Translations under genes and position numbers: made by a program | NCBI RefSeq assembly: GCF_910592395.1 | Contig: NC_088321.1 | Location: 3,722,001 to 3,786,000 of the forward strand | Direction of reading: 5' to 3' | DNA length: 64,000 nt | Source of the DNA: Lineus longissimus | Taxonomy: Eukaryota > Nemertea > Pilidiophora > Heteronemertea > Lineidae | The notes under the pieces: generated by a model | Databases searched by the model: none | Told to the model about the DNA's origin: nothing | What the model saw: the letters and a program-made list of their open reading frames with translations, nothing else | Shown here: in pieces, positions 4,721-40,854 of the stretch | Layout of the letters: the number at the start of each line of letters is the position of its first letter | How positions within the stretch are numbered: position 1 is the first letter of the stretch

Positions 4721-6205
4721 AAATGAAACGGCCAGGGGCCATTGTGCTCACCGTATAGATATTTGGTGCTTTGGAATTAATCCAGGTTAAGAATCATTGT
4801 ACATGTTTAGTATACAAGTCAAACCAAAGTCGGTATGACGTGATGTATCGTTGCTTGGAGTAAGTACCATAAGAATATCATCAAAAACAAGTCACTAATA
4901 AACGAGATATTGCACTTTTTACTTATTTTAGTTTTTGCCTTCTGGTGGCCAAGTTGAGTACCAGATCAGATTCGAAATTCGGTGTCCGAGGTTACATGAC
5001 GTAGGGAGTCAGGTGTACCAAATTTCAAGTTCATAGCTTTAGTGGTTAAGAAACGTGCCATAGTTACAATCAAACGACCAATTTACGCCATTTGACCTCC
5101 GTGACCTTGAAAAGCAGGTCAGATTAAAAACTCATATGATACGCGATATATCCTTGCTAGGAGAACCTACCATAAAAATGTTATTGAAAACGAATCACTA
5201 ATAAGCGAGATATCACACTTTCTAGGTTTTCACTTTTGGCCCCCTGGTGGCCAAGTCAAGAATCAGACCGGACTGAAATTCAGGGTCAGAGGTCAGCTGA
5301 CCTAGGGGGTACTTTGTACAAAGCCTCAAGTTCATGGCCTTTGGGGTTAACAAACGTTCCGCAGTTACGCTCAAATGGCCAATTTACACGATTTGACCTC
5401 TGTGACCTTGACAAGCAGGTCAAATCAAAAACCCGTATCATATGTGATGCATCCTTGCTAAGAGTATCTACCATAAAATTTTTACCAAAAACTAATCAGT
5501 AATAAGCGAGATATGGCACTATTCAAATTTTTGGTTTTGGCCCCCTGGTGGCCAAGTTAAGAATCAGACCAGACCGAAAATCAGTGTCACATGTCATCTG
5601 ACCTAGGGGGTCATGTGTACCAAGTTTAAAGTTCATAGCTTTAGTGGTTAAGAAACGTGCCATATTTACACACAAACGGCCAATTCACACCATTTGACCT
5701 CTGTGACCTTGAAAAGTACGCCACATCGACCTGATTTTTTGTCAACATGTAGAGCTACGTAACAGGTGTCTACATACCCAATTTAAAGACTATAGATAAA
5801 TAATAAATTATATAGGACAAACTATAGGACAAATAAAGACAAAGTGTGCCACTATCGGTGAAATTTTAGAGTTTGACCTCTGTGACCTTGAAAAGTAGGT
5901 CAAATCAAAAACCCGTATGATATGTGATGTATCCTTGCTAGGGGTACTCACCATGCAAATTTTAGCAAAAACAAATCAGTAATAAACGATTTATCGCACT
6001 TTTTAAGGTTTTGGTTTTTAGCTCCCTGGTGGCCAGGTGAAGAATCAGACCGGACCGAAATTCGCTGCCAAAAGTCATGTGACCTAGGTCATAATGTGTA
6101 CAAAGTTTCAAGTTCATAGCACAAGCGGTTAAGAAACGTGCCACACAGGATACGGACGACGGGCACATGGCTATCGTCTAGACTCCCCTGACGGTGAGCC
6201 AAAAA
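4721..6205 (-). repeat. old relative of the 1.13-kb hairpin-ended element
   Basis: Starts ATGAAACGGCCAGGGGCCAT TGTGCTCACC, the reverse complement of the other copies' right end. It then carries four or five diverged ~300-bp units, each with TTTGACCTCTGTGACCTTGA and CCCCCTGGTGGCCAAG. It ends in a decayed hairpin region (GACGGTGAGCCAAAAA, about 6190-6206). More internal units and more substitutions than the copies at 36 and 61 kb, so it is older. Confidence 0.7.
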
Positions 6206-6545: not shown

Positions 6546-6551
6546 CTTTTA
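6546..6551. repeat. left target-site duplication CTTTTA
   Basis: The six bases CTTTTA directly abut the left terminus and recur exactly at 21033-21038 beyond the right terminus. A 6-bp exact match at precisely the TIR boundaries fits transposase-made duplication. Confidence 0.85.
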
Positions 6552-6598
6552 TACGGCAGCAGATTAGTGCCATAAAAAATAAAAAAAATAAAATATTA
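6552..6598 (+). repeat. left terminal inverted repeat, outer domain
   Basis: It starts TACGGCAGCAGATTAG and runs on through GTGCCAT, then an A/T-rich stretch ending in AAATATTAT before the 21-bp array. It matches the reverse complement of 20994-21032 except for a short extra A/T-rich insertion on this side. Confidence 0.88.
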
Positions 6599-7144
6599 TC
6601 TCGTTATTACGCGATCTTTTCTCGTTATTACGCGATGTTATCTCGTTATTACGCGATCTTTTCTCGTTATTACGCGATGTTATCTCGTTATTACGCGATC
6701 TTTTCTCGTTATTACGCGATGTTATCTCGTTATTACGCGATCTTTTCTCGTTATTACGCGATCTTTTCTCGTTATTACGAGGTCTTTTCTCGTTATTACG
6801 AGATCTTTTCTCGTTATTACGCGAAGTTATCTCGTTATTACGAGATCTTTTCTCGTTATTACGAGATCTTTTCTCGTTATTACGAGATCTTTTCTCGTTA
6901 TTACGCGAAGTTATCTCGTTATTACGAGATCTTTTCTCGTTATTACGAGATCTTTTCTCGTTATTACGCGATCTTTTCTCGTTATTACGCGATGTTATCT
7001 CGTTATTACGAGATCTTTTCTCGTTATTACGAGATCTTTTCTCGTTATTACGAGATCTTTTCTCGTTATTACGAGATCTTTTCTCGTTATTACGAGATGT
7101 TATCTCGTTATTACGAGATCTTTTCTCATTATTACGAGATGCGA
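6599..7144 (+). repeat. left 21-bp subterminal tandem array (26 units)
   Basis: Twenty-six units with exact 21-bp spacing and no length change. The core is TCTCGTTATTACGMGA (M = A or C), followed by TCTTT or TGTTA/AGTTA, so two linker types occur. Each core holds the imperfect palindrome CTCGT-TATT-ACGAG. Because 21 is divisible by 3, the array is an open frame (repeating SRYYAIF/SRYYEIF), but that is a by-product of the period and not evidence of a protein. Inference: iterated binding sites for the transposase or a host factor near the transposon end. Confidence 0.95.
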
Positions 7145-7235
7145 AAGTGCACGCAACATCGAGGATTAAAGCTCAGGATCAAGCGCGGGAAAGGTCCGTA
7201 CTTTATAGACCTATATACCATCTTCGTGTCCTAAC

Positions 7236-8048
7236 ATGCCTAATATGAGGGAACTTCTTGTACGGTTCTATTTCAATCTTGGACTGAACAATGGTGAAAT
7301 TCTTGCTGCACTAGCCGGTAACCATGACATTACCATAAGCAAACGTACGTTGCATCGTGTGTTACGTGTACTTGGACTGTACCGTAGGAAAAACAAGTCT
7401 GATTTACGCGAGGTAGCAGCATACATCGAAGCATTGCTACAACAAGGCGGGGACATCCATGGATACAGGTGGATGCATCTACGATGTGTGCAGCGCGGTT
7501 ATGTTGTTTCTCTGGAGGAAGTTCGGCTCCTTTTGAAAATACTTGATCCAGTTGGTGTACGATTACGCTCTAGCAGAAGGATGATTCGCAGGGAATACTT
7601 TTCACGAGGCCCAAATTTTGTATGGCATTTTGATTCATATGACAAGTTGAAACGGTACGGTCTTTGTATCAATGGGTGTATAGATGGCTTCTCTCGAAAC
7701 ATAATTTGGCTGGAAGTTTATTCTACCAGCAGTGACCCACGAGTTATTGCCGGGTACTATATGGAAACAGTTGAATCAAGACACGGTTGCCCAGTAAAGG
7801 CACGTGCTGACATGGGAACTGAAAATGGACACGTTGCACACATGCAAACATTCCTTGCAGGAGAGAACAGTTTTTACTACGGTAAAAGTTGTCATAATCA
7901 GAGAATCGAATCATGGTGGGGTATCCTAAGACGCCAGAGTGCTGAGAATTGGATCCTAATGCTGCGACAAATGAAAGAGGATGGATGTTTCTCTGGTGAC
8001 TTTCTTGATACATCGTTGGTTCAGTTCTGTTTCATGAATGTCTTACAG
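7236..8048 (+). CDS. DDE integrase/transposase, exon 1
   Basis: Encodes residues 1-271 of a 379-aa integrase-fold transposase that would cut and join the transposon ends in the nucleus. Residues about 1-50 look like an N-terminal helix-turn-helix (RFYFNLGLNNGEI, then ISKRTLHRVLRVLGLYRRK). The catalytic core follows: D133 in WHFDSYDKL, D192 in RADMGTENG and E225 in NQRIESWWG, with 32 residues between D192 and E225. The family is recognisable from the blocks YRWMHLRCVQRG, RGPNFVWH and INGCIDGFSR, which are common in fish and marine invertebrate rve proteins. The ATG at 7236 directly precedes the conserved N-terminus; a second ATG at 7245 is possible. TATA-like text (TTTATAGACCTATATA) lies about 20-35 bp upstream. 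The exon ends at CAG|GTAAGT in phase 0. No stop or frameshift is present. Confidence 0.93.
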
Positions 8049-8745
8049 GTAAGTTGCACTTAATGAACTCCAAGTCATCTTCATTGTTTGATTACTAGTA
8101 TGCGAAACTAGGCGGCGTTTATCTGTTAGTACACTGGCCGGCAGATAAATGCCGCCAAAATGATCTGACATCTTGCCTGGACCTCGGTCATCCACAGTTT
8201 TAGTATTCACAGTTATTCTAAACACAGGAAATGTATGCCCACACGTTGAGTTAAATCCCCCAAATCGAACGGCTTCCCGGTAAGAAAAATGCCCATCCCG
8301 CTTCAGAGGCTGAAGAACCCTTATTTCTAACAAGAGTGTATATATTCAACGTGGGAGCAACCCCTTTTCATCTGTTAATATCGATAGTGAAAGGGACTAC
8401 TTTCAGACTATGTCGCAGTATAAGTTGGCCTACGAAATGCGGGTGCGCATGCATAGCCTATACTAGTTTTGGGACAACATGCGATATTACGATCATATAC
8501 AAGGGCTGAAGAAAAAAAATGTCCAGTGTCACCCGAGGACTGTACTGCAGTCATACATTTGAGAAGGATGCAAAATCTTTAAAATCCTGATCCCGATAGG
8601 TTAATTGTGTAGAGAACGATTAGAGCAGGGCCTAGGCTCTGACCGTACCATCAGCAACAAAATTCCGACATAGTCCGATGAAAAACGACTGAGAGGCTCA
8701 GCCAACAAAGAACTAATCAGCTAATAGATTTGCATTTCCTTTCAG

Positions 8746-9072
8746 GACGAGTTAGACGAGGTCGTTCATTTGTGGAATACACACATTATCTCTCGGAAAA
8801 GGAACAATAATGCTCCAAGTGGAAGACCAGTTGTTATGTATTCTGTACCCCACTTATACAATGCCAGAGACCTCCTCATCCCGGTTGGAAATGCTGAAAT
8901 CACGGTTTGTAAAAGTGAGTGCAGATTTCGAGGACATTATCCGTGTGACAGAGATGTCTTTGACTTATGCGTCTTGTACATGGATATCAATGGTTGGCTT
9001 CCTCCAGTGAGTCGTTACGAAGCTGTCGATCTATATACTAATCTGAGGAATTGCATTCTGGCCGACCTCTAA
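8746..9072 (+). CDS. DDE integrase/transposase, exon 2
   Basis: Joins exon 1 in phase 0 after a 697-bp intron (donor GTAAGT at 8049, acceptor TTTCCTTTCAG ending at 8745) and adds 108 residues plus TAA. The join reads FMNVLQ-DELDEVVHLWNTH, followed by the family's C-terminal region (GRPVVMYSVPHLYNARD, then a helical tail ending NCILADL). Family members usually read through this segment, which supports the splice. With it the protein is full length at about 379 aa. No polyadenylation signal was found close downstream. Confidence 0.88.
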   Translation, partial: DELDEVVHLWNTHIISRKRNNNAPSGRPVVMYSVPHLYNARDLLIPVGNAEITVCKSECRFRGHYPCDRDVFDLCVLYMDINGWLPPVSRYEAVDLYTNLRNCILADL

Positions 9073-10582
9073 GGAATACACCAAAGACTCCTGTTTTGTG
9101 CATCACTTGAAGTGAATTGTCTAATATGATCTGTGATGAATTTATGGTAAATTTCCTCCACCCTCTTCACTATCAAGCTGCCAGCATAGCCAGTAGCTTT
9201 CCTAGTTGCCTCAGTGCAGTGTTCAATACTGTAGAATTTTTCATCAAAATTTATGGTTCAAAATTATGTTAAACACCTCTCCCTTTAAAACTGTTCTCCT
9301 ATCAGCCCCTGTTTTCCACCTTCCCTCCTTCTTGTCAAGAACCCCCTTTTCAAGACAACATTCATGTAAGTGTCCTTTTTTATTATCTACTATTTGTGTT
9401 TAATTACCCAACCGGAATCCTTCCTGCTCTTGTTTATCTTGTCTGAGATTGTGTCAAGCAAACCATTTTCATATCCTGCGCCACCCGTGTTATGAACTTC
9501 CAGTAGAAAACCAGTTCCAATGTTGGCACCATTGGCTAAATTTGGACATTTCGTATTTCGCGCACTTCTTCCCCTTTGAGGTGCTATTCGTAATGCTAAA
9601 CTTGTGTCTACGTACATCGTTACACTGTGTACATTTGTACACCTAGTTTAATACTATCATGTCTGACCTGTTCAAGAGGTGAAGTCGGGGTTTTAGAACA
9701 GAATCTAAATTGTTTATATTGCCAGATGAAGTTATTGCCTGTCTGAACAATAGCCCTTCGGGAAAAGTTAAATAACTCTAAATCTGTACATACGAATAGA
9801 TTGTGCTCTCGGGATTATAAAGATGAATATCCAACATGTTTAAGGATATAATCATATCCTTTGCGGTTTTTATGGGTGCTGGTGTATTTCGGTGGCCTTT
9901 CGGGCACATGCCCTTTTGTTTTCATGATTGTCGTGAAATCACATAAATTAGCGTCGGACCGCCAAAGTATAGACCATGTCTTATGCAAAGTTAATTTTCA
10001 CAAATTCTGTACATTCAATCTTCATCAAAATTCGTCAACTTAATCCCGAGTATTTCAGCCTTCCTGTGATGTATTCCATTCTTATGCGGTTTGGCGGTGG
10101 CCGGACGGCGTAGGATGAATTTCTTGTGTGTTTCGTAAAGGGCTAATGCATTACGGCATTTGTGCAAGACGGCTGTGAGTGGTGTGCGGCAAAAGCCATA
10201 TCTCCTTGTAAAGTAAAACCGCAGCAATTTTGACTTTGAATAACTGTTGTATATCGTTAGAAGAAGAAGTCCTCCAATTTATACATTGATTCTATGTACA
10301 GTTTTCTCTCAGTATCGATGTTTGTGTGAGGTAAAATCGGTATAAAGCATGTGTGCCTGTAAGGAAATACCTTAGGAGCCGTCGCGTCCTGGAGGGGGTG
10401 TCTCCTCACTTAAGTCAAAACCGCACGAATTTGGTACACAGAAAGTTTTTGTAAATAGTTTTATCAGCTTCTTTAGCGGTAAAGGCCGAGTTTGTATGAA
10501 ATAGATATTTTGCGGTTTTTGTGATGCCCGAGTTATGGAGTGAGATTTGTGAAGATTTGAGGCAAAAGGTTCATCTTTTTCC
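9073..10582. other. transposon interior, no supported gene
   Basis: AT-rich sequence after the integrase. The only pattern seen is a loose recurrence of TTTGCGGTTTTTATG-like and CACAAATTC-like words around 9855, 10085 and 10500, suggesting degenerate repeats spaced a few hundred bases apart. Short open frames on both strands lack motifs. Confidence 0.5.
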
Positions 10583-10651
10583 GTCACGTGACGCATTTTA
10601 CGGTCGGTGATTGGCCGCTGCACGACGTCGAAAACTATATATTAAGACGTC
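10583..10651 (+). promoter_or_regulatory. promoter-like cluster: E-box, CCAAT, TATA
   Basis: In order: the palindrome GTCACGTGAC (10583-10592), an inverted CCAAT box (ATTGG, 10610-10614), GACGTC (10624-10629), TATATATTAA (10636-10645) and a second GACGTC (10646-10651). Spacing suits a compact RNA polymerase II promoter starting near 10670 on the plus strand. No convincing coding region follows, so it might drive a noncoding or unrecognised spliced transcript, or be a relic LTR promoter. Confidence 0.4.
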
Positions 10652-12682
10652 GCCTTTCGTGTTTAAGGCAGTCTAGATCGTGCGGTCCTATCGACAACAC
10701 TGACTCCAACCTAAGGTACGATCCCGGTCCCGGGCCCAGTCCTCACCCCTCAGGGTGGCGGCTGCCGCTCTTGCGGCCCTTTGACAATTCCATCCGTCAC
10801 TGAATCCGATCAGACTCACTCCATCTACGGGACACTCCTTGCTCACCATTAGAACTTTCGGACTTATTCCGTAGTCTAAGCATTACTTAGCTATCACCAC
10901 GGCGTGCTTCTCGTGGTCACTTCCGAGCGGTGCGCGCTTCCAGCGCAGGACTCCGGGGCGCGCTCCTAGCGCCCGTTCCTCTGTGCGTGCTCCAGCGACC
11001 GGCGCGCAGTGTGATATTTGAAAGATGATATGTTGAATGTTATAGTCTCAATGTACGCTCCTAGCGTAAAGTTTAATTCTCTGTACATAAAATTGAGCGA
11101 ATTGTTTGATAATGTTGCGCCGATCTGGTGCGGAAATTGTAAATATAGTTAGCGTAACAGCATGAATGTTGGCGGACCAGCCTTTATTTCATGAACGAAT
11201 TATACACTTTATTTTACCTGATGACTTTGTTGGCCATTATTCAACGAACCCCACGTATTGTAGCAACGCCCATTCGGGTATTTTGGTCTGTGCGAGGACA
11301 GGTCATTTTGAGAAATCTATCATGTCATCGAGGATGCTCTTTCACGGGGTATGTGCGACGGCTAGATCATTAGAGTCAGTTTCCATGACGCTCTCGAACC
11401 AGGTACCATCCGCCTTAGGCCATCCATGGCGCACCACCATATCCGTCATTCCAATGCCAAGGCCCGACCGGGCGTGTCCCCGCAGATCATACGCCCTTGA
11501 GTGTCCTCGTTTGACAATGATATATTTCGATTATCTAACGTATAAAATAAGAATGCCAGACATGGAACCCCTATTTGTTATACTCGACATGCATAGCCAG
11601 ACGTGCTGTCATGCGGCTCTGGAGACAATGTCGTCTCTGATCATATTTTCGGTGTGCGTATGCACTATAAGTTGCCATTAGACGGGATGACCCCCTTATC
11701 ATCTGTCTCCATGTATCGCAACCAGTTTCCATGGTTTGCACTAGCCACGACAGTTTACGCCAGCCGTTAAGACCAGAGTTAGGACTTGCTATGACGACCA
11801 GCTTCAATGGTAGTAGTAAGACACGACGTCCATCCCGCGACGTCCCAGTCGACCGGCCTTCGGCGATCTCTATTGAGTGTGCACCTTGTCTCCGTACGCA
11901 CACCGACGAAAGGCTATTACCTACATGTCACCCTGAAGAGACAACCTATCCTTGCCTGAGACAGGGACCGGAGGCCCAGTTCGTTGATTATTATCGTGTA
12001 TGCGCGTTGTGCTGACATTAGCCGCCTAAGATTTGCCAACGTCCTGCCAGACCGAACTGCGTAACCCTGGACAACCATGTCCGACATTGCCACTGGGAGT
12101 CAAGTTACGTCACGCATGTGCATACTACGATATTATCTTCTGTCTGGAATCCCGGGGCCTGTCTCTCTATCTCGATGCGAAAACAACCATGTCTGGACAG
12201 TCTTAATGTAAATATCGGCGGTGTTATAGACCGATATGGACGACGCCTGGTTGTGACATTGTCTCGTGACGATGACTGACCGTCCAAACCTACGCACAGA
12301 CAGTTATTAAAAAAAAATAGACCGAGATTCGCTACAATACACATGATTCGCTTTACATTATGTACATTGTTCAGTACATTCTACATTTTGCTATGCTTTG
12401 AGTGATTCAGATCTACGATCTTTGGAAGTTTGTTTACATTCATGTAAGTTTGGAACAAGATTTTGGATAGTAATCATTAATATCTTTTAAATTCGTGATC
12501 ACGATTGATGTGAGTATGAATAATTGATTAGGGCAAGAATTAGACGGAGACAGTGTGGATAAACGAGGTACATGTATTTGGACCAGATTTGCAAGTTGTC
12601 ACTGCATCAGTTTCTACCGGTTCAATTTGGCGATGTGCCAGTATGAGTAGTGAGGATGTTGTGCAAATTTGTATCAAACCAG
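10652..12682. other. CpG-richer transposon interior, no recognised gene
   Basis: Locally richer in G+C and CpG than its surroundings. Between about 10900 and 11070 a short motif recurs (GCGCGCTTCCAGCGC, GCGCGCTCCTAGCGC, GTGCGTGCTCCAGCG, GTACGCTCCTAGCG). Open frames of 171 aa (plus, 11166-11681) and 110 aa (minus, 11571-11903) overlap each other and show no domain, so neither is called. Candidates are an LTR remnant, a noncoding transcript, or spliced exons I cannot resolve. Confidence 0.4.
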
Positions 12683-13874
12683 GCGCGGATCCAAGGGGGG
12701 GGGGCACAGCCGGCCCATGCCCCCTCTATTTCTGAAAAAATCTTTGAAATTGACCATGAAATTATTAGTCGTGGTTCCACCTATCCCAAATTGGTGGGTT
12801 TTTGAAACCCGTGTCTAACCCGTGTTTGAAATAAGCCCACCTTGCGTTTACACCTATTTTCTCCATTTCATTAGCACTAAACCCGGTGTAACATCTGTGG
12901 TTGTTCCCCATGTGTCAGTGTTTCCAAACAATAGGCAGCTAGAGAGACCACGACTTTTCAATAGGGGGGATACACAGAAAAACTTGTCAATCTATTTTTG
13001 AGCGTTCCCAAACAATGAGGGGAAACACTCACACACGGGAAACACTCACATATATTACACCTACCGGCAAGAGAGGTCGCGCTTGCGGCTTCGCGGTACT
13101 TGATTTCAGAACAAGTACCAACAAGTTACCAATGAATTCCAGGAAAAACAGCACAACCCTTGTCTATGAAAGGATTTGTACAAAGTGTGAACTTAGAAGT
13201 ATTGGAAATGAGTTCAATTTCATTTTTAAATGCCCAGCGATTGAACATTTACGTAGAGAGTTTGAGGAAGCTAAGTATGCTAAGCACCCTGATGACCGAG
13301 GTTTGACTAGTTTATTCAATTCAAAGAAGAAGCAAAATGATTTTGCTAGCCAAATTCATCTCAGCAGGATTAAAAGAGTATGCCCTCCTTCCTAATGTTA
13401 TGTAACTAAGTGTTGGTATCTTTAATACCATGTCATTGTTGTTTGTTAGAAATGTTACTTATTTTTGTAATTGAATTTTATATCCTTATAATCAAACCCT
13501 TTATGTACTGTCAACGACAATTAGAATGTAAATTATATCTTATCTAATTCGTAAGTTCTCCTGTGTTTTTTTATGTATGCAATCAGCAAGCCGAGCTTAT
13601 TGTGGTTCCACCAATCTGAAAGGCGGGTCTATTTTAGCCCCGGCAAGCTTGCCGGGTCTAATGGACACGGGGTTTTCAAACACGGGTTTATTAGACACGG
13701 CAATAAATATGTGTACGCACAAGAACCCCGGGTTTTTGGTGGATTTGGAATAGGTGGAACCACGACTATTGACTTCAAAAGGATTTCTTTGCAATTGACC
13801 AGGACATTTCAATACGAAGTACATGTATCATGTGTGCCCCCTCTTTTCTCAGCGCATGGATCCGCCCCTGCAAA
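12683..13874. repeat. composite inverted-repeat element around a LINE remnant
   Basis: The outer ends are inverted relatives: GGCGCGGATCCAAGG plus a G-run and GGCAC at 12683-12709, and GTGTGCCCCCTC...GGATCCGCCCCTG at 13838-13873. Nested inside are copies of TAGTCGTGGTTCCACCTAT at about 12763 and, inverted, ending near 13766. The right-hand inner copy (13597-13766) looks like a MITE with GTGGTTCCACC at both ends. A LINE remnant sits between. Best read as several small elements inserted into one another. Confidence 0.5.
13092..13395 (+). pseudogene. LINE ORF2 C-terminal remnant
   Basis: The plus-strand frame reads FRTSTNKLPMNSRKN, then RICTKCELRSIGNEFNFIFKCP, ending at a stop. This is the cysteine-rich C-terminal motif of non-LTR retrotransposon polyproteins (C-x2-C, then N in place of the usual H, then C), with the typical EFxFxFxCP text. 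Only about 100 residues remain and no reverse transcriptase domain is attached, so it is a 5'-truncated fossil. Confidence 0.65.
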
Positions 13875-14204
13875 CCGTCATAATTCAAATGGGATTTACC
13901 TACAAGGTGTCATACATGTGTCCTGTGATTGTTTATCAGTCTATGTAACCTCATGATATATGAGGGAACGATGGTCCTTTTGTAGAGACTGTTGTCACAT
14001 GTTGATTATAAATCTACCAGCAAATTAGACGACTCTCAAAATTAATCATTGAATTTATTTGAATAAACAAATCGTTTTTGAATTACATCTTGGAGTAATA
14101 ACCTAAGACATCGTTATGTTATTGCACAATATTGCACACACTTCTTTTAAGAAGACAAAGATAAATCTACACGATGTTACCATCATCATTGACTATTTTG
14201 CTAC

Positions 14205-14300
14205 ATGTATAGTTCATTCAGAAGTCGTTGTCATTGAGTTACATGTAGATTCCAAAACCACGGCAACACTGACTTTCTGAATGAACTATCGTACATAATT
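14205..14300. repeat. short MITE-like hairpin
   Basis: TATAGTTCATTCAGAA near 14208 is answered by TTCTGAATGAACTATCG near 14275, giving a roughly 90-bp hairpin with ends ATAGTTCATTCAGAA. No coding content. Confidence 0.5.
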
Positions 14301-14419
14301 GAACACATTGCTAAGTTCTCAATAAAGAGCAACGAACAGAGATGTGATAAGATATTATCAACTGGCCGCGGATTATACTAGAATTATACAATGTACTGGC
14401 CTACCCCATCTTAATGCAC

Positions 14420-15285
14420 ATGTCGATTATCTGCCCGCCGAATTCTACAACATTTCAATTAATAACAATAATGGTAGTATCAAATATACGCAACAAGTCG
14501 ACTACACATACCCACCGATTTCGAAAAGCTCAAATCAAAACACTCATCATCACCTTTCCAGTAAAAACCGAACAAAAACAGAAAGACGGAATTTAAAGTC
14601 GACTACCTGCCGATTTGGACAACTTAGTATAATATACGATTATAGAGAAAATGCTTACAAAAAATAAAAAGTCGACATCATCCAAAACGCTCATCATTAT
14701 CATTCCAGTAAAAACTTTACAAAACAGAATGATAAATGAATAGTCGACTATTTACCTGTCGATTTGGACAACTTCGCTATATGCACTATTGTACGGTTAA
14801 TATGCATACATCATTAACTTGACGTACATTAGAAAAATGTTTGACACAAAATAGCAAGTCTTCTACCCGCCGATTTCAACAACATCAAAAACGCACATCA
14901 TTACTATTTCAGTAACCTTACAATGTACATAAAACTAACGAAAGAGGATGATAAAATTAATAACTACCCATCGAATTCGACAACTTCGTATTATGCACAC
15001 AACACGATTATTGTGAAAATGCTTACAAAAAATAACAAATCGTCTACCCGCCGATTTCAACATCATCAAAAACACACATCATTACTTTTTCAGTAAAAAA
15101 AACTAACAACTAACTTAAACAGAATGATGAAATTAATGACTACCGGTCGATTTCGAAAACTTCGTATTAGGCACACACATCATTGACAGTAAAAAAGTCA
15201 GCTTACACAAAACAAATAATATCGTCATAATCTCAATGCACGCGTCATTACCATTTCAGGGAACCACATCTCCAGAAGAAAGTTA
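14420..15285. repeat. degenerate ~150-bp tandem repeat
   Basis: Recurring blocks TACCCGCCGATTTCAACA, ACATCATTAC(C)ATTTCAGTAA, and ACTTCGTATTATGCACAC appear in the same order four to five times at roughly 150-bp spacing with substitutions and small indels. It lies just downstream of the SAM-HECT stop codon (minus strand) and has no coding potential. Confidence 0.6.
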
Positions 15286-15389
15286 TGACAAGGAATGATA
15301 AAATGTCTAAAAACACTACCGATCGCAAAAAATAGGGGGCATGAGATTAGCGTTCTTGCGACAGTTTAGAGCAAGTTTGGTAGAATCGG

Positions 15390-17459
15390 CTATACAAAGT
15401 CCATTACCCACACGTTGCTATTCAGCATCTCCAAAAATTCATTACGGAATTCTGGATAGCTATTGTAGTCAACGGGGAGTTCAAGAAGACCAGAACAGGT
15501 ATGTGCAACGGGGCGGCGGGCGAGCCCAGCTAAGACAGAAAATGATACCTCTATTTTCTCGGTACAAATGATATCGGATCCAGTAACAAACCTTAGGAAT
15601 TGGCGCAAATGCTCGTCCCCCATATCTTTCACCAGTTTCGTCAGGAACTTTGATACATCCCTTTGAGCATTTGTCATATTCTCCGGGAATGATATAAGTT
15701 TATTAACTTTTTTTGCGGTTGGCCTTGCTCTCTGGTAGATATCATCAAGCTTACATATTCTCAGATTTCCCCTTATTTCTTCACGCCAACAATCGATGAC
15801 GAACATTGGTTCTTGAAGAAGTTCTTTCTCCGCTAGTTCCATCATGGTTGGCCGAAGGTTCTTTTCACTTGGTACTCTCCGGACTTTGTGATCATCATAC
15901 ATATCAACGAGATCATCGGTATCAACTGACTCGAAGTTCGCTAGTGCTTTTTCGACACTTTCCCTTTCAGATGATGGCAGGAACCTTAGGTAGTCGTTCA
16001 ACAGGCTCTCTTCTTCCTCAGGTTTTAGCGACTGCGAAAGCACCTGCTTCATAAATGTGGGTGCTAGCTGAATCGGAAAGTACCCAACGGCTTCATATCC
16101 CACCATCAAGATCCTGGCGATAGCCTTCCACTTGGAATGATCAAAATCATGGCGCAAAAAGGGTACCTTGCAGCTAGTGCCCATGGTGCATGTTTTATAA
16201 AACTCTTCCCAGAATTCTGATACTGTGTCTCGTAAGACCCCGCCCATGTCAGCCGCAGCTTCGATATCACCATTAGGCAACAGTCGCCTTACATAAAGTT
16301 CCCCCACTTGACCCAGGTCCGGATCTTTGACGAATGCTTCTACGAGATCTTCCAAGGTAAAGCCTCGTCTGATCAACAACTGGTCAGCACGTGTCGGGCT
16401 GAAAATCGGAACCTCAGGTCGTGGGTGTATATCAGGCACATGTAATAAATCTGGAAGGAAGTCTGGCATGTCTGGCGATGTTATTGTAGATGGCAATGTG
16501 GTGACGAATGAAGCCCTGGGTACAGCGCTACTGGTTGTAATTGGCTGGTAGGGCACTGTGACACTGTCATCAACTGAATATTCGAAAGACCCCAGTGGAC
16601 TGACTGAACCTAGCGCTGAGCCCAGTGCAGCTGAAGCCTTGGGTACAGCACTACTGGTCGGGGTGCTATGCAGAGAGGCGTGTGGTAAAGTGACTGAAAG
16701 GGTATCGTCAATATCACCGAATGGGCCAAACTGAACCTCTAAATCTTGCTCATCGTTAGGTATAACTACATTAGCTGCCACATTTGGCGGGTACTCTAAC
16801 AGATCATATTTTCTGACGGAGTCACTAGATTTTTCATCCTTCATTTCCTTAGAATTATCTACAATATGACAAGTAGCAAGGTAAAATCGCATCATTGGTA
16901 ATTTAGTTTTTTCATACAACTGTCCGACGGTGTCGGAGGAGTCCAATTCATTTTCCTTGAAGTCAATTATGGAAAACTGATATTCTTCTTCCCTTCCTTG
17001 CGCCGATTTACCTCCCGGAAAGAAAAGGGCTTTGGCAATGCTGAGAAGGTCAGCAGACGTCATACATTTGTCTACACGGACCTTTCTCGTTCCGCCACCG
17101 CATCTGGAGCGTACCTGCTTTAGGATACCTGCATCAGAAACTCGATTCAGCCAACCAATCTCAACAAACCGCATGTTTTTTTTTGCATTAGAATTGCCAA
17201 ATGTATGCATGGATGACAGTTTTACCCTGGTTGTTTTTTCGCCAGCTTGATCGTCCGCTTCCATATCGGCGTCATCATGACCTCTCTTTAATTTCAGCTT
17301 TTTCCTTAGTCTATCTAACATATTTCCCTTCCGGGACTCCTTTCCTTCACTGGCTATCAGTCGACGACAGTAGTTGGTCACCGCTAAACGATCACCGTAG
17401 AATTCGACGTACTCCTTCAGGTCCGCATCTGTCATCAGTAAAATGACTTGATGATCAAT
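15390..17459 (-). CDS. SAM-HECT ubiquitin-ligase-like protein, exon 2
   Basis: Encodes residues 25-713. It continues the SAM-like domain begun in exon 1 (IDHQVILLMTDADLKEYVEFYGD), then a Lys/Arg-rich linker (RLRKKLKLKRG), a region with a TRKVRVDK strand, and a Ser/Pro-rich low-complexity stretch (about 270-370). A divergent HECT domain fills about 380-713. HECT landmarks: DMGGVLRDTVSEFWEEF resembling the DAGG-REFF block, LRQFLRFVTGSDII, and the C-lobe AHTCSGLLELP, with the predicted catalytic Cys at 679, 34 residues before the end. Known: HECT enzymes take ubiquitin onto this Cys. G2E3-like proteins of this kind occur in many copies in fish and invertebrates. The acceptor is TTTTGGCATTTCAG at 17460. 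The frame is fully open. Convergent with the integrase; likely transposon cargo. Confidence 0.85.
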   Translation of the reverse strand: MDHQVILLMTDADLKEYVEFYGDRLAVTNYCRRLIASEGKESRKGNMLDRLRKKLKLKRGHDDADMEADDQAGEKTTRVKLSSMHTFGNSNAKKNMRFVEIGWLNRVSDAGILKQVRSRCGGGTRKVRVDKCMTSADLLSIAKALFFPGGKSAQGREEEYQFSIIDFKENELDSSDTVGQLYEKTKLPMMRFYLATCHIVDNSKEMKDEKSSDSVRKYDLLEYPPNVAANVVIPNDEQDLEVQFGPFGDIDDTLSVTLPHASLHSTPTSSAVPKASAALGSALGSVSPLGSFEYSVDDSVTVPYQPITTSSAVPRASFVTTLPSTITSPDMPDFLPDLLHVPDIHPRPEVPIFSPTRADQLLIRRGFTLEDLVEAFVKDPDLGQVGELYVRRLLPNGDIEAAADMGGVLRDTVSEFWEEFYKTCTMGTSCKVPFLRHDFDHSKWKAIARILMVGYEAVGYFPIQLAPTFMKQVLSQSLKPEEEESLLNDYLRFLPSSERESVEKALANFESVDTDDLVDMYDDHKVRRVPSEKNLRPTMMELAEKELLQEPMFVIDCWREEIRGNLRICKLDDIYQRARPTAKKVNKLISFPENMTNAQRDVSKFLTKLVKDMGDEHLRQFLRFVTGSDIICTEKIEVSFSVLAGLARRPVAHTCSGLLELPVDYNSYPEFRNEFLEMLNSNVWVMDFV

Positions 17460-18016
17460 CTGAAATGCCAAAAATACATAAACCATTGATTTTATCTGGG
17501 ACAGGTTGAACGCTTTACTGTACGTGTGCGAGAAGGTGTTGTAGCGAGCAAATAAAATTTATATATGCAAATTATGCATTGTAGACCGCGTCATATTTCC
17601 CGTTTGGTGCAATCGGCTAAGGGGTCATTCACAACTTTCTAAATGTTCACAAGACTCACATCTTTGAATAGTACGCTGGGGAGGGGTGTAAGGGCTGTGA
17701 CGTGTCTTGAACTGACTTCATATATTAGTGAGGTTAAGATCATAACGGGAACGACAACGTTAACGGGAATGACGCCACAAACTTATTGAAATGCATCATA
17801 ATTAAAGGGGCACAGTATTAGATTCAAAGTCAAGGACGCGTAATTACAATATTGGTCAGACCCTCAGCTTGAATGAATACCAATCTGATGGTGTTGTCCA
17901 TTTTCTGGTCTATCAGACAATCGCCTCGCTTCAAGTCTCCATGAAACGCGTCACGCTGAAAGCGAGAATCCTCCTGACCTGTTATTCATGATAAGAATGA
18001 GACGATCGCTTCTTAC

Positions 18017-18088
18017 CTTATCTTCCCTAAATTTGACCACCACATTCTGCAGGCCCCGCCCATTTAGGAACTCTTCCAGTCCATCCAT
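18017..18088 (-). CDS. SAM-HECT protein, exon 1
   Basis: Twenty-four codons from the first ATG: MDGLEEFLNGRGL, then QNVVVKFREDK, then donor GTAAGA. It joins exon 2 in phase 0 after a 557-bp intron. The joined text (L-x2-FL-x3-GL..., KFxEDKID, LLMTDADLKE, GDRLAV) is a recognisable SAM-type helical domain split by the intron. That it only becomes complete when joined is strong support for this small exon, which is too short to call alone. Confidence 0.8.
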
Positions 18089-18835
18089 ATCTAAAAGTAT
18101 TAATTCGGTCAAAATTATTTTCGCTAAGCGCCTAGTTTCGGTTAGCGACCAGCAGTCAGGTCATGAAATAGGTTTTAGTGAGGGCAAGGCCAATTTGCAA
18201 CTTTTTCTTCAGTGGGACACTTTTCTAATACATTTAGAATAGAAAAACTGGCCTTGAACAAAGCAAAGGGAATTTGAGGAGTAGGGCACCAAGGCAAGTA
18301 GGTGGGCATCAAAGGCCACTGGCCTCATGGCCTTCGTTTATTTCATGCCCTGTGACTACATGTACATCCAACTGCATGTAAGGGAAGGAAAAACCAAAAG
18401 CGACTCAGTATTTGATCCAAAATCGTGAGCCAAGGGGGTATAACCTGTGGGCTTATGATGAAATGCGAAATAAACCAGTGGCGAAATGACAACAGGATAT
18501 TTTTTTTGTCCGATTCCTGTCGGACCGATTCCGTGCAAGCCGCGAGAAAAAAGGACATGGTCACTCCGATTCCATGCAGGCCGCGAGAAAAAACTGTACT
18601 GAAAGATTCCGGGCTCATTTTTTGCACTATTGAGAACTGATTAATGGACTAGAGGTAAAGGGTGATAAATAAATTTTTAATGGGGCTTTACATTGACCTC
18701 AAACCTTTGGATTTGGCTTTGGAGCACGGAACTTGCCATGTAAGGAGGGCCCCTTTCAGTTGCCCCTGGCTCATAACCCACCCAAAATCCTTGTCTAATG
18801 CCTTAATATGTCTGTGTCATGCCATGCATCTCGGG
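18089..18835. other. upstream region of SAM-HECT gene
   Basis: No coding evidence. It contains two copies of a GATTCCRTGCARGCCGCGAGAAAA motif near 18525 and 18570. GGCTTATGATGAAATGCGAAATAAACCAG near 18450 recurs inverted near 19600-19660. Any promoter of the SAM-HECT gene should lie here, but I see no clear TATA box. Confidence 0.4.
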
Positions 18836-19014
18836 CCGGTGTGACAGTGGATGTAGTCACCCTGGAGCCATAGTCCGGGTAGCATTGTATATGACGGATT
18901 AAGCCGCACGATCTATTATACCAGTATTATACCACTAACCCTAACCAAACCTTTGACAATGCGGGCCTATTGTCACCCGGACTATCAACACTAGGACTAC
19001 TATCCCTGTCGCAC
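18836..19014 (+). repeat. foldback MITE, copy 1
   Basis: It starts CCGGTGTGACAGTGGATGTAG and ends GACTACTATCCCTGTCGCAC, so its own ends are inverted. It also contains CATAGTCCGGG / CCCGGACTAT. The reverse complement matches 19296-19466 closely. The internal CTAACCCTAACC is part of the repeat, not a telomere. Confidence 0.65.
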
Positions 19015-19295
19015 CTGCTCCACGTGCTTTTGTTGTGATGGACTTAAAAATTTTACAGCTAAACATTTGTACTGGGGAAGAGGGGTTTTGAAGGCTAAAT
19101 GGCTGGCGTTCGCGGGGGGGGGGGCTGGGGGAGGGGGTTGAGTAGGGCTGTTGGGATGTTCTTTGATTGCATTCGTGAAAATCACTTGCACTTTTTGCAT
19201 TACGATAAATAAACTATATATATATATAAATATCTTGTCATAGGCCTACTAAATTGGGGCCACGGCAGTGGCGGCATGCAGTGAGGGACCTAGAC

Positions 19296-19466
19296 CGGTG
19301 TGACGGGGATAGTAGTCCTAGGGCTGTTAGTCCGTGTAACAATAGTCCGCATTGCTAAATGTTTTGGTTAGGGTTAGCGGTACAATAGAGCATGCTGCTT
19401 AATTGGTCAAATACAATGCTACCGGACTATGACTCCGGGGGGACTATATCCGCTGTCACACCGGTA
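19296..19466 (-). repeat. foldback MITE, copy 2 (inverted)
   Basis: Ends are ACCGGTGTGACGGGGATAG and CGCTGTCACACCGGT. It is the same element as copy 1 in the opposite orientation about 280 bp away, so the pair could also form a long cruciform. Confidence 0.65.
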
Positions 19467-20342
19467 TCTCCCGCGAAGATATCTACCGGTATGTTGAATT
19501 GCTCGGGTATTTCCGACAAAGCTCGGAATGCTGGATTGAGGGAGTCACCGGTGGTATTGTAGGGGATCCAATTTAAGGTCATTCGTTTGGTCATTTCGCT
19601 ATTTCACCATTTCGCTGGTTTATTTCGCATTTCGCATTTCATCATAAGCCACCTGTGTACAACTTGCTCAAATACCATCTTATAGGCCTATATAGTTAAT
19701 ACTTTCCACTGAAACTTCGTCGACATTAGCAGAATTTCAAAGATGTTGGGGTGGTTCCAGGACAAGCAGAAGTCGGCTGATTTGGCCTAATAGAATCCAT
19801 GAACATGATGTACAAAAGCTATCGTTTTTACGACACACTGCGCACCCCGGATAATTCTAGAACAACCCCCCCCCTTCACGCACACGCACCCAATTCCCCA
19901 TGGTGGGAACAACTCAATCCCCTTAGTCGCCCTCTGGCGTGAGGGTTTTGGGGGAAATAACTCGTCGGGGAGGGGGTGGGTGCAATGGTCCGGGGGATTG
20001 TCAAGGGGATATTGACTCCCACCCTTCTATCATAACAAAGGCTCTTGCCATGTGCCGCTTCTTTGCCCGCCTACAGCAAACCACTACCGGGAATAACCGT
20101 TGAAAAACCTAAGACAATGCGTGTATTCAGTACACTGGTCAGCATTAGGCCTATACTGAATGGAAATGCCATGATGCAATACACTGCCTGCAGCAACATC
20201 GAAGCCGCTGTTTCGCCTGACCCTTGCCAAGACCATGCAGCCGTAAAGGGCAATGGGTCTTTAGAAGATGTAACGGCATAAAGCTAAACTTACCTAACTT
20301 GCTAACTTGCCCACTCTCCCTGATGCGTGCACGTGTTTATTC
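19467..20342. other. transposon interior right part, no gene
   Basis: No supported coding region. Includes an inverted relative of the GAAATGCGAAATAAACCAG motif (about 19590-19660) and short C- and G-runs around 19866 and 19970. Confidence 0.45.
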
Positions 20343-20993
20343 CAATATCGCGTAATAACGAGAAAAGATTTCGTAATAACGAGATAACATCTCGTAATAA
20401 CGAGAAAAGATCGCGTAATAACGAGAAAAGATCTCGTAATAACGCGATAACATCTCGTAAAAACGAGAAAAGATCTCGTAATAACGAGAAAAGATCTCGT
20501 AATAACGAGATAACATCTCGTAATAACGAGAAAAGATCTCGTAATAACGAGATAACATCTCGTAATAACGAGAAAAGATCGTGTAATAACGAGAAAAGAT
20601 CTCGTAATAACGAGATAACATCTCGTAATAACGAGAAAAGATCGCGTAATAACGAGAAAAGATCTCGTAATAACGCGATAACATCTCGTAATAACGAGAA
20701 AAGATCGCGTAATAACGAGAAAAGATCTCGTAATAACGAGAAAAGATCGCATAATAACGAGAAAAGATCTCGTAATAACGAGATAACATCTCGTAATAAC
20801 GAGAAAAGATCGCGTAATAACGAGAAAAGATCTCGTAATAACGCGATAACATCTCGTAATAACGAGAAAAGATCTCGTAATAACGAGAAAAGATCTCGTA
20901 ATAACGAGATAACATCTCGTAATAACGAGAAAAGATCTCGTAATAACGAGATAACATCTCGTAATAACGAGAAAAGATCTCGTAATAACGAGA
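20343..20993 (-). repeat. right 21-bp subterminal tandem array (31 units)
   Basis: Thirty-one units at exact 21-bp spacing, inverted relative to the left array: CGTAATAACGAGA followed by AAAGATCTCG- or TAACATCTCG-type linkers, the same two types as on the left. Single-base variants (GTGTAATAACG, CATAATAACG, CGTAAAAACG) mark older units. Long open frames on both strands reflect only the 21-bp period. The longer array here than at the left end suggests copy number drifts by unequal exchange or slippage. Confidence 0.95.
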
Positions 20994-21032
20994 TAATATT
21001 TTATTTTTTTATGGCACTAATCTGCTGCCGTA
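20994..21032 (-). repeat. right terminal inverted repeat, outer domain
   Basis: The reverse complement reads TACGGCAGCAGATTAG, then GTGCCAT, A/T-rich sequence and AAATATTAT up to the array. The first 22 bases match the left end perfectly. Confidence 0.88.
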
Positions 21033-21038
21033 CTTTTA
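21033..21038. repeat. right target-site duplication CTTTTA
   Basis: Exact repeat of 6546-6551, directly abutting the right terminus. Confidence 0.85.
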
Positions 21039-21093: not shown

Positions 21094-22839
21094 AAAAAGT
21101 ACATGCTTCTCTCTAGAGCACGAGAAATCATTCTCACAATCCCTATTTGTATAACAATATTACACGCTTCTTAGAGTATACAATTAACACATTGGCCCAA
21201 TATGTATCAAAATACGTGACGCAGTATACAGCGAAATTAACATTATGTCACAAGTATCTTGTTTAGCAGGATGCAATTGGAAATACATATACGTAACTGA
21301 TTAGCATCAATTCGTTTCCCATCAAACTGTCAAATGTTGAGCTGGTGAGATCTTTGCACTACCATCTTGCTCGTGAACTACAACGGAGATTTATGAAAAT
21401 AACTTTTAACTCAAAATCGCCTTTCCTGGTCAATGGGTTGTTATGCTGTCCTGCGTCATGTATTAGTTACATGTTCTAGAGTACAAAAAGACATACTGTC
21501 CACATAGTTCAAGCATAAAAATCCTAAGATTCTAGAATATAATTAACACACTGGCCCATATGCATTGAATTGTACTCATCGTAGAATTCCATTTTCCACC
21601 AATAGTCTTATGGTTTGCGGACTTTTGCTTCTGGTTCAGAGCAACATTTCATTAAAGTGTTCCTTTTGTGAAACGTTCCTCTAAACACAAGGGGATTTTA
21701 AAATCAAACCGTATAAACACTTATATAAAAAGTTTCTAGAGGAAAGAAGGATACCGACATCTGAATAGTCTTATGAGTGAGGTTTCGCTATCCCGTTACA
21801 CTGAAAACGGTCCTCGTTCCCGTTCTCATTATCGGAAATATCAAAAAAGATTTCCTATTCCCCGTATAAAAATGCATGCATGCATTCACAACCAAGATTT
21901 CGGCCTGTTTTATCATCAGCCCTCTTGGTTTACAAACCAACCTTTCTGGATGTTATTCTTAATCACGGTTCGGCAACTGGGTACCAAGGCCTGGTGGACG
22001 AAATCCGGTTTTGAGATCGAGAAAACCAGCTCAGAAATTGATGGAAGTTATTCGCATCAGTCGATCAATCTCGGTTGATCGGTTCATGGAACGAGATAGC
22101 AAAAACTCACTATACTGTTGACTTCAGAGGAACGTTTTACAAGTGATCTTATCTGTGTAAAACTTTGCTCTCCGCTAGAATAAGCCGCGCCGAACAATGT
22201 ATAGGTGCAAGCTTCGAGAGCATAGAAATGGAATACCATTCATACAACGGCCCTAATGCATCAAGATAATAATAAGTTTCTCTAGAGTACAAATAGAAAT
22301 ACAATTCACACAATGCAAGCAAAACATTACGTTTCTATGATACAATACGCATCAGAATATGTGACGCAGCCAGTAAAACATTGCATGTCGATTACCAGGT
22401 GAATTTTTGGATACAAATGCACTTGAAAATGGGAACTGCATTACTCAGCATGAATTATTCTCCCATAAAATTATCAATTTTCAAACAAAGACGTCTTCAC
22501 GTGACACTGAATCTCACGAAATGGAGTTTTCAAAAATAAACTGCAACCCAACTTGTTTTCTGTTCACTTTGACTCGTTTTACTGTCTGGGTCACAAGTTT
22601 GTCGAGTTCAAAAATAAAGCACGCACTGATTGAGCCTAAATATCAAGCTTCACAAGCATATATAAGAAAAACATCTCTCCCATTGTCCATTCCGTATGCC
22701 TAACATATGAAGCTTCACAAGCATACATAAGAAATACATCTCTCCCATTGTCCATTATGTATGCCTAAAATATCAAGCTTCACAAGCATGTATAAGAAAT
22801 ACATATTTCCCATTGTCCATTCTGTATGCCTTAAACATC
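21094..22839 (+). repeat. 1.75-kb tandem duplication, copy 1
   Basis: Starts AAAAAGTACATGCTTCTCTC, and the same text recurs 1,746 bp later. Similarity to copy 2 is high along most of the length. It contains a 101-aa open frame (21773-22078, starting MSEVSLSRYTENG) that is conserved at its start in copy 2 but then diverges through indels, so it is not called a gene. The distal part has a 60-70-bp repeat (ATATCAAGCTTCACAAGCAT) related to the array that follows copy 2. Confidence 0.85.
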
Positions 22840-24420
22840 AAAAAGTACATGCTTCTCTCTAGAGCACGAGAAATCATTCTCACAATCCCTATTTGTATAA
22901 CAATATTACACGCTTCTAAAGAGTATACAATTCACACATTGGCCCAATATGTATCAAAATACGTGACGCAGTATACAGCAAAATTAACATAATGTCACAA
23001 GTATCTTGTTTAGCAGGATGCAATTGGAAATATATGTACGTAACTGATTAGCATCAATTCGTTTCCCATCAAATTGTCAAATGTTAAGCTGGTGAGATCT
23101 TTGCACTACCATCTTGGTCGTGAACTACAACGGAGATTTATGAACAGAACTTTTAACTCAAAATCGCCTTTCCTGGTCAATGTGTTGTTATGCTGTCCTG
23201 CGTCATGTATTAGTTACATGTTCTAGAGTACAAAAAGACATACTGTCCACATAGTTCAAGCATAAAAATCCTAAGATTCTAGAATATAATTAACACAATG
23301 GCCCATATGCATTGAATTGTACTCATCGTAGAATTCCATTTTCCACCAATAGTCTTATGGTTTGCGGACTTTTGCTTCTGGTTCAGAGCAACATTTCATT
23401 AAAGTGTTCCTTTTGTGAAACGTTCCTCTAAACACAAGGAGATTTTAAAATCAAACCGTATAAACACTTATATAAAAAGTTTCTAGAGGAAAGAAGGATA
23501 CCGACATCTGAATAGTCTTATGAGTGAGGTTTCGCTATCCCGTTACACCGAAAACGGTCCTCGTTCCCGTTCTCATTATCGGAAATATCAAAAACGGTTT
23601 CCTATTCCCCGTATAGAAATGCATGCAGGCATTCACAACCAAGATTTCGGCCTGTTTTATCATCAGCCCTCTTGGTTAACAAACCAACCTTTGTGTTGTT
23701 TCTCGCCAGTTTATCGCGTAAAAGAATGTATACCGCACAAATTTCTGGATGCTATTCTGAATCACGGTTCGGCAACTGGGTACCAAGGCCTGGTTGACAA
23801 AATCCGGTTTTGAGATCAAGAAAACCAGCTCAGAAATTGATGAAGTCATTCGCATCAGTCGATCAATCTCGGTTGATCGGTTCTTGGAACGGGACAGCAA
23901 AAACTCACTATTACTGTTGACTTCAGAGGAACGTTTTACAAGTGATCTTATCTGTGTAAAACTTTGCTCTCCGCTAGAATAAGCCGCGCCGAACAATGTA
24001 TAGGTGCAAGCTTCGAGAGCACAGAAATGGAATACCATTCATACAACGGCCCTAATGCATCAAGATAATAATAAGTTTCTCTAGAGTACAAATAGAAATA
24101 CAATTCACACAATGCAAGCAAAACATTACGTTTCTATGATACAATACGCATCAGAATATGTGACGCAGCCAGTAAAACATTGCATGTCGATTACCAGGTG
24201 AATTTTTGGATACAAATGCACTTGAAAATGGGAACTGCATTACTCAGCATGAATTATTCTCCCCAAAAATTATCAATTTTCAAACAAAGACGTCTTCACG
24301 TCACTCTGAATCTCACGAAATGGAGTTTTCAAAAAGAAACTGCAACCAAAAATTTGTTTTCTATTCGCTTTGACTCGTTTTACTGTCTGGGTCACACACT
24401 GATTAGGCCTAAAATATCAA
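22840..24420 (+). repeat. 1.75-kb tandem duplication, copy 2
   Basis: Direct repeat of the preceding unit. Differences include an insertion of roughly 60 bp near 23697-23755 (text with TTTATCGCGTAAAAG) and a deletion near the end. The level of substitution indicates a fairly recent duplication. Confidence 0.85.
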
Positions 24421-25105
24421 GCTTCACGAGCGTATAAGAAATACAGTTCTATCATTGTTAATACCGTATGCCTAAAACATCAAGCTTGACGACCATTCAC
24501 GATCATAAGAAATACAGTTCTATCATTGTTAATACCGTATGCCTAAAATATCAAGCTTGACGTCCATTCACGATCATAAGAAATACAGTTCTATCATTGT
24601 TAATACCGTATGCCTAAAATATCAAGCTTGACGACTATTCACGATCATAAGAAATACAGTTCTATCATTGTTGATACCGTATGCCTAAAATATCAAGCTT
24701 AACGTCCATTCACGATCATAAGAAATACAGTTCTATCATTGTTAATACCGTATGCCTAAAATATCAAGCTTGACGACTATTCACGATCATAAGAAGTACA
24801 GTTCTATCATTGTTGATACCGTATGCCTAAAATATCAAGCTTAGCGTCCATTCACGATCATAAGAAATACAGTTCTATCATTGTTAATACCGTATGCCTA
24901 AAACATCAAGCTTGACGTCCATTCACGATCATAAGAAATACAGTTCTCTCGTGGCCCATACTTTCATGACCTTGTGCCTTAAACATCAAGCCTCTCGAGC
25001 ATACATATAAGAAATACAGTTCTGTCATTGTCTATAACTAATATCTAAAATATCAAGCTTATATAAGAAATACAGTTTGCTCATTGCTGATACCGTATGC
25101 CTAAA
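24404..25105 (+). repeat. 71-bp satellite-like array
   Basis: Unit CGATCATAAGAAATACAG, then TTCTATCATTGTTAATACCG, then TATGCCTAAAATATCAAGCT and TGACGTCCATTCA. It repeats at 71-bp spacing from 24501 through 24927, with diverged units at both edges. AAGCTT occurs in each unit. Noncoding. Confidence 0.85.
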
Positions 25106-35799: not shown

Positions 35800-35915
35800 T
35801 GTGTACCTTTTTTACGTATTTATGCCATTTTGTGTACCTTTTTTCCCAGTACCTTTTTTCCGGTACCTTTACTTCCGGTACTTTTATTTCCTGTACTTTT
35901 ATTTCCCGGTACTTT
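35800..35915 (+). repeat. TACTTTTATTTCCGG short tandem repeat
   Basis: About eight copies of a 14-20-bp unit (GTACCTTTTTTCC / GGTACTTTTATTTCC). The 1.13-kb element is inserted into this array, which resumes at 37049 with CAGTACCTTTTTCCTGTACC. Confidence 0.65.
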
Positions 35916-39290: not shown

Positions 39291-39493
39291 TATATACTAT
39301 ATATGCGTGTGTGCATGTGACACGAAAAGAACAACAGTAGTCACCATAGCCGAAATTCCGTTCCGCTCTAATGGCTTCGAAAACAATAACCGATCACTTT
39401 TCCGGGACCACAGAAACACCGAGATAATCTGGTGAAAAGTGTAAAGGAAAACAGCGTTCCCCACAGGAGGGATTAGGAAGCCCTGAACTGAAA

Positions 39494-40780: not shown

Positions 40781-40854
40781 TCATGATATATTTGTTTCCA
40801 AAGAGTAGTGATAGAACAATCACCAGTACCCAACTCTTTCTTGTTAGTTGTATG

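Follow-up and report, generated by a model that had tools for sequence, protein, structure and literature searches.

IS3EU (GingerRoot) elements have TA..TA termini, target site duplications (TSDs) of usually 6 bp and a DDE transposase that resembles those of IS3/IS481 and lacks an HHCC domain, according to the sections of PMC10045372 used here. Fungal IS3EU elements, in the excerpts of PMC12730594 drawn on, have TAYGG..CCRTA ends, terminal inverted repeats (TIRs) of more than 30 bp, a 6-bp TSD, and alpha-kinase and TET/JBP genes. We analyzed 64,000 nucleotides of Lineus longissimus DNA (contig NC_088321.1, positions 3,722,001 to 3,786,000; this whole stretch is the window, and its own numbering is used below). 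The window holds a transposon at 6552-21032 which, classed by published traits, fits an IS3EU variant with a core gene for a putative SAM-HECT ubiquitin ligase.

Compared with IS3EU/GingerRoot in those sections of PMC10045372, the window element has the same termini, TSD length and type of transposase, but adds the predicted ligase and long 21-bp subterminal arrays. With the fungal elements, as far as the excerpts of PMC12730594 go, it shares the ends, TIRs of more than 30 bp, the 6-bp TSD and a second gene lying opposite to the transposase; however, in those fungal elements the other genes encode a kinase and a DNA dioxygenase, whereas here the partner is a predicted ubiquitin ligase in an animal. 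The words HECT and ubiquitin are absent from the text of PMC10045372 and from that of PMC12730594. Styx of Zymoseptoria is likewise a multi-gene element with an IS3EU-related transposase, but has four coding sequences, two of them exclusive to Zymoseptoria (PMC10853768, a text searched for IS3EU only). Some Helitrons, too, are DNA transposons that encode a ubiquitin-system enzyme, a VTD or OTU deubiquitinase; in contrast to the window element, with its DDE transposase and putative ligase, they are rolling-circle elements whose enzyme removes ubiquitin (PMC9741609, in part). Among the literature matches listed there was no description of HECT in IS3EU; earlier records are possible, and most subscription papers and Repbase entries lay outside the search. 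A paper on coelacanth insertions (PMC4255032) was rejected, the searched term being missing from its main text.

An earlier note, made from the window sequence, had proposed a 14.5-kb transposon here from a CTTTTA duplication, matching 22-base inverted ends, opposed 21-bp arrays and an intact DDE integrase. All four signals were borne out. Read from the sequence, CTTTTA stands at 6546-6551 and again at 21033-21038, and the full span between the two is 14,481 bp. The inverted ends (TACGG...CCGTA), TACGGCAGCAGATTAGTGCCAT at 6552-6573 on the forward strand and its counterpart at 21011-21032 on the reverse strand, are identical in inverted orientation over the outermost 22 bp; beyond these lies an 8-nt A/T indel. 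The long terminal repeat is 590 nt overall, with its left and right versions 91% identical, and the end strings do not occur again within the window.

Inside the ends lie the subterminal arrays, 26 units of 21 bp on the left (6595-7140, forward strand) and 31 on the right (20347-20997, reverse strand), which face each other. The unit is TCTCGTTATTACGAGATCTTT; its core, CTCGTTATTACG, is near-palindromic at 14 of 16 positions and is found nowhere in the window outside the element. With its exact ends, subterminal arrays and intact DDE transposase, the window element is a real transposon. Foldback-type elements also have long inverted ends of tandem units, but differ in their transposases and TSD lengths. 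In fetched copies of the element, a spacer of about 38 or 47 nt separates the terminus from the first unit. The four long copies have the longer spacer on the integrase side and the shorter one on the HECT side, which makes their two ends unequal.

The integrase (transposase) gene is on the forward strand. Exon 1 (7245-8048, with an alternative start at 7236) matches PF24764 (E 8.6e-26) and ends at the splice donor GTAAGT; after a predicted intron at 8049-8745 with the acceptor TTTCAG, exon 2 (8746-9072) includes the stop at 9072 and is 98-99% identical in amino acids to three other long copies. Splicing of this gene and of the HECT gene is predicted from sequence, not from transcripts. The catalytic residues D130, D189 and E222 of the 268-amino-acid exon 1 product are invariant across 23 aligned sequences, and the exon 2 product, by eye, resembles the C-termini of homologues. 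NCBIfam gave IS3 (E 4.1e-4) and IS481 (E 7.4e-4), both well under their curated cut-offs. A single Cys precedes the first catalytic D, and no HHCC zinc domain could be read before the core. The core of the predicted structural model matches retroviral integrases; a PDB sequence search returned no match. We found 1,019 homologues, and the named ones among the 120 listed are from animals (fish, molluscs, echinoderms, beetles and Xenopus). A search of genome contigs gave one match (47% in its best segment), on a 3.8-kb contig of a metagenome-assembled genome titled sponge symbiont. The earlier note had placed the element in IS3EU by family traits, and the assignment fits on every trait that could be tested: termini, TSD length, transposase type and the absence of HHCC.

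The second gene runs on the reverse strand, tail-to-tail with the integrase, and is intact in the window copy. Exon 1 (18017-18088) encodes 24 amino acids, MDGLEEFLNGRGLQNVVVKFREDK, and is kept with its splice sites (donor GTAAGA) in the four long copies. Exon 2 (15390-17459, stop included) encodes 689 amino acids, laid out as the second half of the putative SAM domain, a central domain, a linker and the HECT domain. Its PF00632 match (E 6.2e-9) covers the last third of the profile. The catalytic Cys is residue 655, in RRPVAHTC, and is invariant in 39 sequences. In the predicted structure, residues 354-687 match the HECT ligase fold in both lobes; the structure search barely covered the part before residue 353, central domain included. 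PDB sequences gave weak matches only (best E 0.022). The spliced N-terminus matches the Pfam SAM_1 profile below threshold (E 0.021; 15.6 bits against a cut-off of 23). There are 90 homologues, from a search that scored the 7,995 candidates sharing most words; those with names are again animals (fish, a frog, Ptychodera, molluscs, a sea cucumber and beetles). No relative of either protein was found in viral contigs with single sequences or profiles. Likewise, the 18 open reading frame pieces scanned, which left aside shorter frames and those upstream of the HECT gene, had no Pfam match to Polinton/Maverick polymerase or capsid genes. Upstream of the HECT gene, 18836-19464 holds two inverted copies (79% alike) of a sequence of about 180 bp resembling a miniature inverted-repeat transposable element (MITE).

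We searched the host genome (391 Mb, 30 contigs) for further copies. The exact 22-bp end occurs 98 times (45 forward, 53 reverse), and a control pattern read backwards occurs 0 times. Ends with an exact partner nearby form 39 adjacent forward/reverse pairs. In 28 of these the 6 bp on either side agree fully, and in 30 at least 5 of the 6 positions do. When flanks of different pairs were crossed, a 6-bp match arose in 2 of 1,482 combinations. Two of the pairs (L022 and L046) are the same insertion within duplicated DNA, so the perfect duplications number 27 distinct ones. Duplications of other lengths are the 7 bp of one long copy and the 5 bp of one copy of a second family, described below. 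Among 17 single ends fetched with about 5 kb of inward sequence, 11 have a partner with 1-3 mismatches and 6 have none. The earlier note would have been contradicted by copies that end elsewhere. This was tested in part, as the search used the end sequence itself as query: the 28 perfect duplications abut these ends, which are also the boundaries of the long copies.

The 39 pairs span 359-575 bp (14), 887-1,516 bp (18), 4-5 kb (3) and 13.5-18.3 kb (4). Of the fetched loci of this family, the long copies alone yielded an integrase or HECT gene. The four long copies hold the same order of integrase (94-100% identical in amino acids) and HECT (mostly 92-100%, falling to 73-87% in damaged parts), with about 96-99% sequence identity in most shared blocks and with the predicted splice sites kept in all four. 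Their flank duplications are CTTTTA (window), TTATTC (C11), the 7-bp CTACCTC (C2) and TTTTTA past a 9-bp end repeat (C4). Only the window copy is free of lesions in both genes; the integrase is open in C2 too. One could suppose that the ends come from a MITE-type family and that other elements brought the genes between them, given that 32 of the 39 pairs are short (359-1516 bp) and that a long copy contains nested elements. Such an accident would hardly leave four long copies alike in ends, gene order, sequence and flank duplications. Moreover, sequence adjoining the start of the integrase (window 7167-7226 and further) survives in several shorter copies, as is typical of internal deletion derivatives. 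We see next to no chance that this explanation is right. The earlier note had spoken of recent or ongoing mobility. Recent movement is supported, as the window copy differs from its three siblings by 0.25-2.2% over nine compared segments; ongoing movement was not borne out.

The size of 14.5 kb is correct for the span, but not all of it is the element's own sequence. A different element of 3,105 bp is inserted at 9230-12334, with its own duplication, CAATAC, at 9224-9229 and 12335-12340. The site is uninterrupted in the C4 and C11 copies, which rules out the whole 14.5 kb as element-own. Parts of the insertion are present in the C2 copy at 99% identity, so the already enlarged element was probably copied or moved. 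A smaller insertion of 179 bp (12885-13063) is missing at this place in C11 and lies elsewhere in C4. Because nested insertions add to the window copy, we infer an element-own length of about 11.2-11.4 kb. In the copies at C4:13972672 and C11:7818571, the HECT intron holds a further insertion, of about 1.5 kb, which both have in common and which neither the window copy nor C2 has.

The two genes recur together across the genome. The HECT protein found 67 pieces, which form 37 loci when pieces within 6 kb on one strand are merged (all 37 were counted), and the integrase found 144 pieces at 109 loci; both searches score best candidates only, so these counts are lower bounds. A related integrase lies within 20 kb of 28 of the 37 HECT loci, compared to about 0.011 expected per locus by chance, and 27 of these 28 are convergent. 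The only linked locus in another order, C13:10468068, is beside a 34% integrase fragment. The HECT match is just 23% identical at C28:26810, C3:10603950 and C3:11035257, which may be host genes; the last is counted among the 28. In a class count restricted to pieces judged by eye to span some 150 amino acids or more (54 of the 144), a HECT neighbour is present at 21 of 30 pieces that are at least 50% identical versus 1 of 24 below 50% (Fisher p 7e-7, descriptive only because loci of one family are copies). A distant integrase class (C9:11352519, C1:17646356, C12:4556146, C20:8090917, C7:13064233 and others), mostly 42-46% identical, includes many open copies. No HECT gene was found within 20 kb of its members except at C8:12683724, and the class may have another partner gene.

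A second family carries the same pair. Its copies on C4 and C8 encode a HECT protein 34% and an integrase 54% identical to those of the window, again convergent and with the catalytic Cys and the DDE residues retained. The C4 copy (16238681-16245494; 6,814 bp) has the ends TACGGCGGCC[C/T]GG, an A-rich spacer and, on either side, arrays of a 21-bp unit other than that of the window element; its duplication, GCAAC, is 5 bp long. A deletion derivative on C11 (4,186 bp) is flanked by the 6-bp duplication GAAACA. For the C8 copy, the left end was not found within the stretch fetched. Compared among families F1, F2 and F3, HECT is 33-34% identical and the integrase 52-54%. The arrays of families 1 and 2 have the 21-bp period (two turns of B-DNA) in common but not the unit sequence; likeness of the units was rejected, as the best rotation gave 8 of 21 matches, which 1,998 of 2,000 shuffles reached. 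At four loci, L071 (C11:10159543), C16:6570879, C16:10920004 and C15:8306418, the integrase is family-2-like and its HECT neighbour is matched in the C-terminal half only. A perfect 6-bp duplication flanks L071, so this shortened form has probably multiplied.

We are thus confident of the anatomy and of the core gene pair, a convergent DDE integrase and SAM-HECT ligase, as those of an IS3EU-type transposon. The HECT gene seems to be a regular functional component of the element, because the same gene sits by the same type of transposase repeatedly genome-wide. The earlier note had likened the element to large cargo transposons. The second gene stands, but chance cargo was rejected on the presence of the pair in the long copies and on its recurring linkage to the integrase, and the size is partly nested insertion, with a 6.8-kb relative carrying the same two genes.

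The element would move as follows. The integrase may bind the terminal 22 bp together with many of the 21-bp near-palindromic units, which, being two helical turns apart, would all lie on one face of the DNA. It would pair both ends, cut and join at TACGG with a 6-bp stagger, excise the element and insert it elsewhere. The HECT protein would take ubiquitin on its conserved Cys and pass it to a target picked through the SAM and central domains. This target would most likely be a repair factor or some host factor by which the element is silenced or restricted.

A host target is our first choice for the ligase, held tentatively. Our second is that HECT acts on the integrase, by a ubiquitination that limits copy number or sets the timing of transposition, with no action on host defence. 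Self-limitation is common in transposons, and one element encodes both proteins; the data do not separate a self target from a host target. On the other hand, HECT diverges more among F1, F2 and F3 than the integrase does, which a changing host target fits equally or better. We regard self-regulation as rather unlikely, though a serious competitor.

Several observations weigh against this picture of working arrays and a working ligase. The arrays vary from 0 to 31 units per end across the 39 pairs. The C15 copy (887 bp, perfect TSD) has no unit at one end, and L039 (362 bp) has a single unit on one side. The arrays may not be strictly required, or may have been lost afterwards, and slippage alone could be the source of their expansion. 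They might then be unimportant satellites, with the integrase binding only the outer 22 bp. Against such a view, at least one unit is present at both ends in 37 of the 39 pairs, derivatives down to 359 bp retain units at both ends, and the second family keeps the 21-bp period though its unit sequence differs. We consider the satellite explanation unlikely, and continue to favour arrays that the integrase would bind.

Other points concern the ligase. The SAM domain is suggested by a match below the Pfam threshold. Nine of the 37 HECT loci (C11:5827314, C11:10814196, C12:5377800, C13:15165827, C20:9189854, C28:26810, C3:10603950, C3:14375991 and C5:17168106) have no integrase within 20 kb, these being mostly partial or distant matches, and 9 of the 30 close integrases have no detected HECT gene nearby. 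As loci within one family are copies, the linkage counts should not be read as independent events. Across the four long copies, hand-pooled changes in HECT come to 56 nonsynonymous to 15 synonymous, a ratio near 1, with no sign of recent purifying selection, and the gene is broken in three of the four; the integrase, by the same hand-pooling, has 13 to 16 (ratio about 0.2), and here purifying selection is seen. This is the pattern expected if HECT were a captured host gene with no role in the life of the element. However, a neutral passenger would decay, and the pairing is also present in the second family, where HECT is about 35% identical and keeps its catalytic Cys; nor would a passenger account for a convergent integrase neighbour at 27 of 37 HECT loci. 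We therefore hold the passenger explanation to be highly improbable. For the working part that we prefer, near-neutral and broken copies fit a trans-acting or dispensable role equally with an essential one. They argue against strong selection on each copy, and have to be weighed with the deep conservation of the gene.

The window holds other repeats. A block of 1.14 kb that contains a tandem unit of 301 bp is present at 35910-37048 and 60472-61607 (98.5% identical), and an inverted version, about 70% alike, adjoins the transposon at 4838-6162; the pattern suggests a family of repeats that have tandem units inside. At 21094-24625, 56 bp to the right of the TSD, a 1.75-kb direct tandem duplication (90%) contains satellites of 65 and 71 bp. 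Repeats of 145 bp, with 73-bp units, make up a large array at 55725-58948 that is in turn duplicated (94%). By eye, 39428-43412 is an element of the long interspersed nuclear element type, with a long first open reading frame, an endonuclease-like frame and a reverse transcriptase frame; many relatives of the last bear PF00078 among the 120 listed of 393.

Taken furthest, our reading is of an animal IS3EU clade with an obligate SAM-HECT protein that would disarm a host factor involved in silencing or restriction. Of the genes annotated as "uncharacterized HECT domain" in fish, molluscs, echinoderms, hemichordates and beetles, many would then be this transposon gene rather than host genes. We put this forward as a possibility that falls somewhat short of an even chance. 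Before large animal "HECT domain" families are called host genes, they should be examined for TACGG ends and linked integrases of the IS3EU type, and the intact gene pair of the window is a ready test object. If the reading is true, a cut-and-paste lineage that encodes a ligase would be the counterpart of the deubiquitinases encoded by Helitrons, and the ubiquitin system would be a meeting place of hosts and transposons.

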